64,000 nucleotides of DNA, taken from Hyphomicrobiales bacterium. Its GTDB lineage: Bacteria; Pseudomonadota; Alphaproteobacteria; Rhizobiales; Devosiaceae. Both the position numbers and the translations under genes were made by a program. The first letter of the stretch is position 1. The number at the start of each line of letters is the position of its first letter. The notes under the pieces are model-generated. The model ran no database searches. It saw only the letters and a program-made list of their open reading frames with translations, and was not told where the DNA came from. Below are positions 60,680 through 63,808 of this stretch, piece after piece. The DNA is taken from NCBI GenBank assembly GCA_004144345.1, contig SEEL01000015.1:24213-88212 (forward strand), written 5' to 3'.

Positions 60680-62101
60680 ATGCCGGGACCGTCGCCCTTC
60701 GATGAAATGACCAATGCGGATGGCTCCATCCGCGAACCTTATCTCATCCTCGATCAGTGGCTGAAGGAACAGAAGCCGCAGGCGCTTGGCCTCATGGCGA
60801 GCGATGCCGAGGGCATTTTCCGGCGGCTGGGCATCACCTTTGCGGTCTATGGATCGAACGAGGGCACCGAAAAGCTCATCCCGTTCGACATCATCCCGCG
60901 CATCATCTCGGCCATCGAGTGGCGGAAGCTCAGCAAAGGCATCGAGCAGCGCGTGCGCGCCCTCAACGCCTTCCTCCACGATGTCTACCACCGCCAGGAA
61001 ATCCTCAAGGCGGGCCGCATCCCGGAAAAGCTGATCCTCAACAACTCCGCCTTCTGCCCGGAGATGATGGGGCTCGATCCGGCGCGCGGCATCTATTCGC
61101 ACATCATCGGCGTCGACATCGTGCGCGTCGGTCCGGACGATTGGTATGTGCTCGAGGACAACCTCCGCACCCCCTCCGGCGTCAGCTACATGCTGGAAGA
61201 CCGCGAGGCGATGCTGCAGCTCGCGCCCGATCTCTTCCAGCGCACCAAGGTCGCGCCGGTCGAGACGTATCCGGAAAATCTCCGCCGCACGATGGAATCG
61301 GTCGCCCCGCCCGGCGCCAGCGGTTCGCCCAATCTCGCCGTGCTCACCCCGGGCATCTTCAACTCGGCCTATTTCGAGCACAGCTTCCTCGCCGACCAGA
61401 TGGGCGCCGAACTGTGCGAGGGGCAGGATCTGTTCGTCGAGAACGGCAAGGTCTATGCGCGCACCACCACCGGGCCGCGCCGCATCGATGTGATCTACCG
61501 CCGCATCGACGATGATTTTATCGACCCGCTGACCTTCCGCCCGGATTCGATGCTGGGCGTGCCGGGCCTGTTCGATGCCTATCGCGCCGGCAACGTCACC
61601 CTCGTCAACGCGCCGGGCACCGGCATCGCCGACGACAAGGCGGTCTACACCTTCGTGCCCGAGATCATCGAGTTCTACCTCGGCGAAAAGGCCCTGCTCA
61701 AAAACGTGCCGACCTACAATTGCACCATCCCGGATGAGCGCGCCTATGTGCTCGAGCACATTGCCGAGCTGGTGGTGAAGGAAGTGCACGGCTCGGGCGG
61801 CTACGGCATGCTGGTCGGGCCGACCTCGACCAGGGAGCAGCACGATCTGTTCCGCGAAAAGATCCTCGCCCGGCCGGACAATTACATCGTCCAGCCGACC
61901 CTCGCGCTCTCCACCTGCCCGACCTATGTCGATGCCGGCATCGCGCCGCGCCATGTCGACCTTCGGCCCTATGTCCTGGTCGGCGACCAGATCCGCATCA
62001 CGCCGGGCGGGCTCACCCGCGTGGCGCTGACGGAAGGCTCGCTCGTCGTCAACTCCTCGCAGGGAGGCGGCACCAAGGACACCTGGGTGCTGGAGGACTG
62101 A
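60680..62101 (+). CDS. Circularly permuted ATP-grasp type 2 protein
   Basis: 473 aa; [27 protein letters not shown]...[22 protein letters not shown]...[17 protein letters not shown]...[19 protein letters not shown]. Confidence 0.92.
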
Positions 62102-62102
62102 G

Positions 62103-63047
62103 ATGCTCGGCCGCACCGCCCAGAACCTCTTCTGGCTTTCCCGCTATGTCGAGCGCGCCGAAAACATGGCCCGCCTGCTTGAAGTCGGCTACCGCATGAG
62201 CCTCACCTCGCGGCGTGAAGGCGGCGCCAGCGAGCATCTGGTGTCGATGCTGCAGGCTGCCGAGGTGGATGAGGAATTCAACCTCAAGCACAAGGTCGCC
62301 GACGTCGCTTCGGTCAGCCAGTTCATGCTGTTCGACGAGACCAACCCGTCATCGGTCCGCTCCTGCCTGCTCGCGGCGCGCACCAATGCGCGCTCGGTCC
62401 GCACCGCGCTCACCACCGACATGTGGGAATCGCTCAACAGCGCCTGGCTCGAATTCGCCGCCATCGATCCGCGCGACATCACCGGCAGCCGGCTGCAGGA
62501 ATTGCTGCAATGGGTGAAGCAGGTTAGCCACCGCTATCGCGGCGCCCTGCTCTCGACCTTCCTCCGCGATGATGGCTATGCCTTCAGCCAGATCGGCAAT
62601 TTCGTCGAGCGTGCCGACAACACGGCTCGCATCCTCGACATGAAGTACTATGTGCTCTTGCCGCGTACCGATCTCATCGGCGGCGATGTCGATATCCAGC
62701 AATGGACTCTCATTCTACGGGCCGCTTCGGCGCATCGCAGTTATCGGCACGTCTACCACGACCGCTACAAGGCGTGGAACATCGCCGACTATCTGATCCT
62801 CCGCCCGGAAATGCCGCGCTCGCTGATCTTTTCGATCGGCTGGATCAACCGCACGCTCGACATGCTCGAGGAGATTTATGGCGGCAAGGGCGCCGGCCAT
62901 GCCGCGGCGGCGGAAGTCACGGCCATGCTCGAAGGCAATTCGATGGACCGCATCTTCGCCTATGGCCTGCACGAATTCCTCACCGAATTCATCGCCCGCA
63001 ACAACAAAGTCACGGAAGCCCTGGCCGAAAGCTACAATTTCTACTGA
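62103..63047 (+). CDS. Alpha-E domain protein
   Basis: 314 aa; MLGRTAQNLFWLSRYVERAENMARLLEVGYR; SRYxERAEN signature. Confidence 0.92.
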   Translation: MLGRTAQNLFWLSRYVERAENMARLLEVGYRMSLTSRREGGASEHLVSMLQAAEVDEEFNLKHKVADVASVSQFMLFDETNPSSVRSCLLAARTNARSVRTALTTDMWESLNSAWLEFAAIDPRDITGSRLQELLQWVKQVSHRYRGALLSTFLRDDGYAFSQIGNFVERADNTARILDMKYYVLLPRTDLIGGDVDIQQWTLILRAASAHRSYRHVYHDRYKAWNIADYLILRPEMPRSLIFSIGWINRTLDMLEEIYGGKGAGHAAAAEVTAMLEGNSMDRIFAYGLHEFLTEFIARNNKVTEALAESYNFY

Positions 63048-63808
63048 TGAAGCTGAGCCTCACCCACACGCTGACCTTCTCGCTCGGCACGCCGGGCCGC
63101 GCCGTGCAGCATCTGCTGCTCACGGCGCTGTCGACACCGCAGCAGAAGATCGAGCGCTGGTCCATCGACATGCCCGGCTTCGCCGAGGCCGCGACCTTCC
63201 GCGACGGCTTTGGCAACAAGGCGCATCTGGTCAGCCAGGTGAAGCCCGAGCCCGAACTGGTCGTCACGGTCAGCGGGCTCGTCGAGACCATCGACAAGGC
63301 CGGCGTCCTCGGCCGCCTCGATCTCGATCCGCCCCCGGCCCTCTTCCGCCGCCCCACCGATCTCACCCGGCCGAACGACGAGTTCCGTGTCGGTCTCAGC
63401 CACAAGGACGGCCGTATCGCGCTGCTGCACGAGCTGATGGCCCGCGTGCATGCGCAGGCCACGGGCCCGTCGCAGACGCAGGATGCCGACGGCCAGTCGC
63501 AGTCGCAGGGCAGCCGCCCCGACGACGCGGTCCACGCCTTCATCGCCGCCGCCCGCGCCGAGAACATCCCCGCCCGCTATGTCACGGGCTATCTCTTCGA
63601 CGACGGCGCCGCCCGCTTCCACGCCTGGGCCGAAGCCTGGGACGACGGCCTCGGCTGGATCGGCTTCGACCCCCTCCTCGACCGCTGCCCCACCGACCAC
63701 CACATCCGCCTCGCCGCCGGCCTGGACGCGACGAGCACCATGCCCATCCGCGCCGTCCCCATGTGGCTGGAGATGCCGGTCGAAACAGTCGAGATCACCG
63801 AAGCCTGA
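63047..63808 (+). CDS. Transglutaminase-like protein lacking catalytic Cys, with Q/S-rich linker
   Basis: 254 aa; N-term TG-like beta domain, VHAFIAAARAENIPARYVTGYLF...RFHAWAEAWDDGLGWIGFDP; ATGA overlap with alpha-E gene. Confidence 0.85.
   Translation: MKLSLTHTLTFSLGTPGRAVQHLLLTALSTPQQKIERWSIDMPGFAEAATFRDGFGNKAHLVSQVKPEPELVVTVSGLVETIDKAGVLGRLDLDPPPALFRRPTDLTRPNDEFRVGLSHKDGRIALLHELMARVHAQATGPSQTQDADGQSQSQGSRPDDAVHAFIAAARAENIPARYVTGYLFDDGAARFHAWAEAWDDGLGWIGFDPLLDRCPTDHHIRLAAGLDATSTMPIRAVPMWLEMPVETVEITEA

Follow-up and report, generated by a model that had tools for sequence, protein, structure and literature searches.

A Cys-less transglutaminase-fold protein of Devosiaceae, its relocated Gln-rich segment, and its Anbu operon without Anbu

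Introduction

What is the role of a transglutaminase-like protein whose operon partners are in place and whose catalytic Cys is not? This question is raised by the third gene of an operon in the window, the whole stretch of 64,000 nucleotides analysed here, which comes from a Hyphomicrobiales bacterium of the family Devosiaceae (assembly GCA_004144345.1, contig SEEL01000015.1). The operon resembles the Anbu operon, which is said to have been described by Iyer et al. in 2009 and to comprise genes for an ATP-grasp protein, an alpha-E protein, a transglutaminase-like protein, and Anbu. To our knowledge, the Anbu operon is widespread, and no peptidase activity has been detected. Its substrate is not known (PMC6376114); Anbu of Pseudomonas putida is upregulated under nitrogen limitation, and a Burkholderia cluster of DUF403/404/407 and a transglutaminase-like protein is under NtrC control (PMC5666114, PMC5491218).

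Overall organization of the locus

The third gene (63047–63808, + strand) encodes a Cys-less transglutaminase-fold protein, or pseudo-transglutaminase, of 253 amino acid residues, identified by Pfam (Transglut_core, 8.5e-14; Bact_transglu_N, 1.4e-9), alignment, and a structural model; an NCBIfam search gave no match. The gene belongs to a tight three-gene operon, in which an apparently intact, circularly permuted (CP) ATP-grasp ligase (CP_ATPgrasp_1/2; 60680–62101, + strand; Pfam 3.7e-165) comes first and an alpha-E protein (DUF403; 62103–63047, + strand; Pfam 2e-88) second; the third gene starts at an ATG that shares bases with the stop codon of alpha-E. The contig, and with it the window, ends ~190 bases 3' of the third gene. 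A scan for sigma-54 sites upstream stayed at chance level, with none standing out.

The CP-ATP-grasp and alpha-E genes lie directly upstream of the third gene as in the Anbu operon (PMC6376114, PMC5666114), with which the window shares the first three genes, their order, and the N-terminal and core transglutaminase domains; however, the window's third protein lacks the catalytic Cys, and Anbu is missing from both the operon and the genome. In the Cys-less Devosiaceae operons, 156 of the 161 ATP-grasp residues and 40 of the 43 alpha-E residues that are invariant among operons with the catalytic Cys (Cys+) are still present. The search for a paralog with an intact Cys elsewhere in the window's genome, proposed with the original prediction, found six other transglutaminase-like proteins, all of them Cys+, one of which is encoded next to a fused ATP-grasp/alpha-E gene. 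The genome also contains a second system, at G000:C44:27219-28804 (L004, L104), in which a fused CP-ATP-grasp/alpha-E protein is encoded beside a Cys+ transglutaminase.

The active site of the third protein

Orthologues were taken from 136 genomes of the family, 398 of the order, 337 of the class, and 399 of the phylum, and were then aligned. The nucleophile motif of the Cys+ relatives is GVCQD[HYF]xH, and the alignment places Pro158 (codon 63518–63520, + strand) in the column of the Cys. The catalytic-triad residues His192 (63620–63622, + strand) and Asp208 (63668–63670, + strand) are retained and are invariant in A1 and A2; in A2, the neighbouring Trp194 and Glu196 are invariant too, in Cys+ and Cys-less members alike. 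Among the 53 distinct rows of the Devosiaceae lineage, the nucleophile column holds Ala in 45 and never Cys (0/53), the remaining rows having Pro, Thr, or Met; the triad His and Asp are each present in 53/53. The protein keeps a single Cys, Cys214 in the DRCP motif (63686–63688, + strand). The original prediction, which placed Pro at the nucleophile position, kept the catalytic His and Asp, and counted one Cys, at DRCP, is thus borne out in all these respects.

It is conceivable that the protein is still an enzyme with another nucleophile, either Cys214 or a water molecule activated by His/Asp, but we regard this as improbable. The invariance of His192, Asp208, Trp194, and Glu196 speaks in its favour, as does the retention of Cys214 in 53/53 Devosiaceae rows and 24/27 other Cys-less rows. 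However, most of the alphaproteobacterial relatives that are Cys+ (92/137 Cys+ relatives) already have a Cys in this column in addition to the catalytic one, so that Cys214 is, by alignment, ancestral rather than a displaced nucleophile, and in the other 45/137 the column holds Ser or another residue. The case raised against the original prediction, in which the Cys at DRCP occupies the active site, does not hold in the alignment, which rules out a displaced nucleophile there on sequence grounds and not on geometric ones.

The predicted structure and the Q/S-rich stretch

The AlphaFold2 model of the window protein has a pLDDT of 93.7, and its only tract of low confidence is residues 141–160 (60–72). 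In the model of a Cys+ relative (L157, family f23), the same region is ordered with a pLDDT of ~98, and a helix at residues 154–160 precedes the Cys helix. The best solved-structure match to the window protein found by Foldseek is 3isr, a transglutaminase-like putative cysteine protease of Cytophaga hutchinsonii (TM 0.71, E 2e-15), which, unlike the window protein, carries the Cys (AGVCRDFAH in the alignment). The window protein is thus predicted to retain the transglutaminase fold; structure prediction, suggested at the outset as a check, gave this fold confidently, and the only loop of low confidence has taken the place of the Cys helix.

The Q/S-rich stretch (residues 136–159; 63452–63523, + strand) is apparently disordered by pLDDT and had been taken for a linker inserted before the Cys helix. 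This description needs correction: in Cys+ relatives the same place is filled with ~30 residues forming the helix and the Cys loop (...TSAAEAFAAGxGVCQD), and the window's tract, with 24 residues, is shorter than this canonical stretch. The tract is therefore a replacement of the Cys-bearing helix and loop, not an insert. In the 45 Devosiaceae linkers of this kind, Gln alternates with another residue beyond what chance would give: we counted 186 QxQ pairs, whereas shuffles that preserve the composition gave 44.7 (maximum 60), and 4 QQ pairs, compared with 46 expected from the same shuffles. In 31 of the 45, two QxQ units flank a DG or NG turn. The codons are mixed (CAG 229, CAA 59; Ser as AGC, TCG, AGT, TCC, TCA, and TCT), which rules out that the tract arose by repeat slippage, and they vary synonymously even between close relatives. 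Because the codons vary in this way while the pattern is conserved, selection acts on the tract at the protein level.

Distribution and origin of the Cys loss

The Cys is missing in all 61 orthologues read from the window's Devosiaceae operon lineage, mostly with Ala instead; six further Devosiaceae genomes, checked after the main alignment with its 53 distinct rows, were likewise Cys-less. A lone mutation with close homologues keeping the Cys, the other case raised against the original prediction, is ruled out by these orthologues (61/61 Cys-less). The prediction's own test asked for a conserved loss of the Cys accompanied by the QSQS linker; its outcome was positive and defines a distinct subfamily across Devosiaceae. 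When the ATP-grasp and alpha-E proteins were concatenated and a tree was built from them, without the third protein, the 49 Cys-less Devosiaceae operons included form one clade (SH-aLRT 100), sister to the canonical operons of f41, and the few canonical Devosiaceae operons form a separate lineage near f23. The Cys loss in the window's Devosiaceae lineage has one origin.

Cys-less members are also found outside Devosiaceae, in f10, f27, f45, f64, and f144. The best tree of the third protein has six changes of Cys state, three of which are forced by well-supported branches; the Cys has been lost several times in this transglutaminase-like protein family. In f10 (L221, L281, L284, L285, L287-L289, L291, L293, L294, L296, L297), the whole family is Cys-less. 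The alpha-E-operon transglutaminases of f10 show drift of the catalytic His too (His in 5/11); they have lost the Q tail, whereas Anbu is still present in most cases.

Absence of Anbu

At 71 of the 79 Cys+ loci, Anbu is encoded in the vicinity of the third gene and almost always immediately downstream of it; at the 54 Cys-less Devosiaceae loci, it is never encoded there. A profile built from 19 Anbu proteins and run genome-wide gave no match in 55/55 Cys-less Devosiaceae genomes (the window's and 54 others), and the same profile found Anbu in 12/12 Cys+ Devosiaceae genomes with 362–395 bits. HslV is present in those Devosiaceae genomes checked. In Devosiaceae, the loss of Anbu and the loss of the Cys count as a single evolutionary event. 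There is no obligate coupling between them, since each occurs alone elsewhere: f10, f27, f45, and f144 have lost the Cys and mostly kept Anbu, and f23 shows the reverse. The f23 operons (L157, L216-L219, L312, L313) are Cys+ without Anbu and have a C-terminal tail of the QSQSQ type; the Anbu profile gave no match in the seven f23 genomes searched. The window's genome contains two HslV-like matches, G000:C108:35955-36470 and G000:C56:6316-6831, where its relatives have one; the extra match may be a duplicate or may belong to the 2% contamination of the assembly.

The Gln-rich module

The Cys+ relatives carry a Gln-rich module at the C-terminus, where the last 15 residues average 20.2% Gln compared with 3.4% in the body, and the tail is the richer part in 49 of the 51 Cys+ families. 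In the Cys+ L157, the C-terminal tail QSQSQNGQSQSQ matches the Devosiaceae linker pattern, and the C-terminal end, SQTQSQSQNGQSQSQTQG, is patterned in the same manner. The 45 linker-bearing Devosiaceae members have lost the Q tail (0/45 with three or more Gln), and their Q-rich segment lies in the vacated loop; in nine Cys-less members of genus g15, the first branch of the Devosiaceae clade, the Q tail is still there and the linker is acidic. The module is accordingly found in the loop (45) or in the tail (9 g15), never in both, and its model confidence is low in either position. In f10, f27, f45, f144, and f64, the Q tail of the Cys-less members has mostly been lost, and no Q linker has been gained, L282 being an exception. 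The association between Cys loss and Q-tail loss across lineages was not significant in a phylogeny-corrected test and is given as a count only, because there are too few independent pairs.

The location of the module in Cys+ relatives, at the C-terminus, makes it possible that the linker itself is a substrate. The Gln-rich segment might be an acceptor that is modified by ATP-grasp/alpha-E or by another enzyme, the transglutaminase-fold protein being the carrier or tagged substrate. The Cys of the protein itself, together with Anbu, would then process the C-terminal Q tail in Cys+ relatives. We consider this unlikely, although the Q-rich tail in 49/51 Cys+ families, the likeness of the L157 tail to the Devosiaceae linkers, the persistence of the module at another place after the Cys loss, and the synonymous codon variation, which argues for selection on the protein, are all in line with it. 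The five Cys-less families in which the tail has mostly gone and no linker has come are against it, as is the internal position of the tract: it has no free C-terminus, and a C-terminal ligation of the RimK type would therefore not fit. The specific form, in which the CP-ATP-grasp/alpha-E ligase would use the module as its carrier arm or site of covalent modification, with the protein as the system's own tagged carrier and the Cys and Anbu as processors of the tag, appears quite doubtful to us.

Selection on the third gene

The third gene could also be in decay, as the relic of an Anbu operon that has been lost. It does evolve faster than its operon neighbours (66% identity between the window and L043, compared with 94–95% for the neighbours), and one copy, L094, is frameshifted. 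However, dN/dS between Cys-less pairs is 0.05–0.34, from which it follows that the third gene is maintained by purifying selection; the His and Asp are invariant, the open reading frames are full-length in the orthologues except L094, and the QxQ pattern is conserved while codons change. Decay is largely refuted by these selection data, and we hold it to be very improbable. In L094 (G092), the frameshift lies after the linker and reflects either a real pseudogene or a sequencing error. Across the Cys-less Devosiaceae, the dN of the third gene is clearly higher than that of the two operon neighbours, as if a partner were changing.

Discussion

The Cys-less subfamily, whose Gln-rich segment has been relocated and whose operon lacks Anbu, is a real and conserved feature. 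On balance, we favour the explanation that the gene is a pseudo-transglutaminase and encodes a selected non-catalytic subunit of an Anbu-less variant of the Anbu operon, which binds or regulates the CP-ATP-grasp/alpha-E ligase. The Devosiaceae lineage has given up the Cys with its helix and loop, together with the Anbu gene, and has kept the CP-ATP-grasp ligase and alpha-E apparently intact. The Cys-less protein would cleave or cross-link nothing; its kept cleft and flexible Q-rich arm may bind a partner or substrate or present it to the ATP-grasp/alpha-E ligase, or the protein may instead regulate this ligase. The ligase arm would then run without its two usual companion activities, the Cys transferase or peptidase and Anbu. 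Such a binding, presenting, or regulating role seems most likely because the fold, the His/Asp, the cleft, and the ligase partners are kept and the nucleophile is missing. The transglutaminase-like protein is now probably a non-enzymatic helper of a protein-modifying system, since the Cys and Anbu have been lost and yet the gene is under selection beside two intact partner genes; a scaffold subunit would be the best reading for the protein. Pull-downs in Yersinia, which detected no physical interaction or stable complex among Anbu-operon proteins (PMC6376114), count against our explanation, as do the single event behind both losses in Devosiaceae and their occurrence apart from each other in other families.

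By analogy, two known systems fit as precedents for a non-enzymatic transglutaminase fold. RloB is an inactive transglutaminase in the same genetic pathway as the ATP-grasp RloC (PMC12239564); that system and the window both pair an ATP-grasp ligase with a transglutaminase fold that is inactive or, in the window, predicted to be so. However, the window protein belongs to a different family, has CP ATP-grasp and alpha-E as partners, and lacks both membrane helices and an aspartic protease partner; the seven transmembrane helices of the RloB type were not found, the two transglutaminase domains filling the 253 residues with no long helical bundle in the model and no Pfam match of that type. In the transglutaminase-like domain of fungal (yeast) Cyk3, only the Cys is missing, and the stimulation of Chs2 in chitin synthesis depends on the retained His and Asp (PMC4758748), both of which the window protein conserves as well. 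The likeness lies only in the way of working, the non-enzymatic stimulation of a partner enzyme, as Cyk3 is a eukaryotic protein with an SH3 domain and a chitin synthase as its partner. A literature search, with most subscription journals outside its scope, returned no description of the Cys-less subfamily and nothing relevant on a Devosia transglutaminase or on Gln-rich tails.

The operon of the window is a natural variant without the transglutaminase nucleophile and Anbu, and it separates the ligase part from the rest of the Anbu operon. The variant points to a role of the transglutaminase-fold protein that does not depend on the Cys alone. In addition, the Gln-rich tail of the Cys+ members and its relocation in Devosiaceae single out a defined segment in which modification or binding can be looked for.
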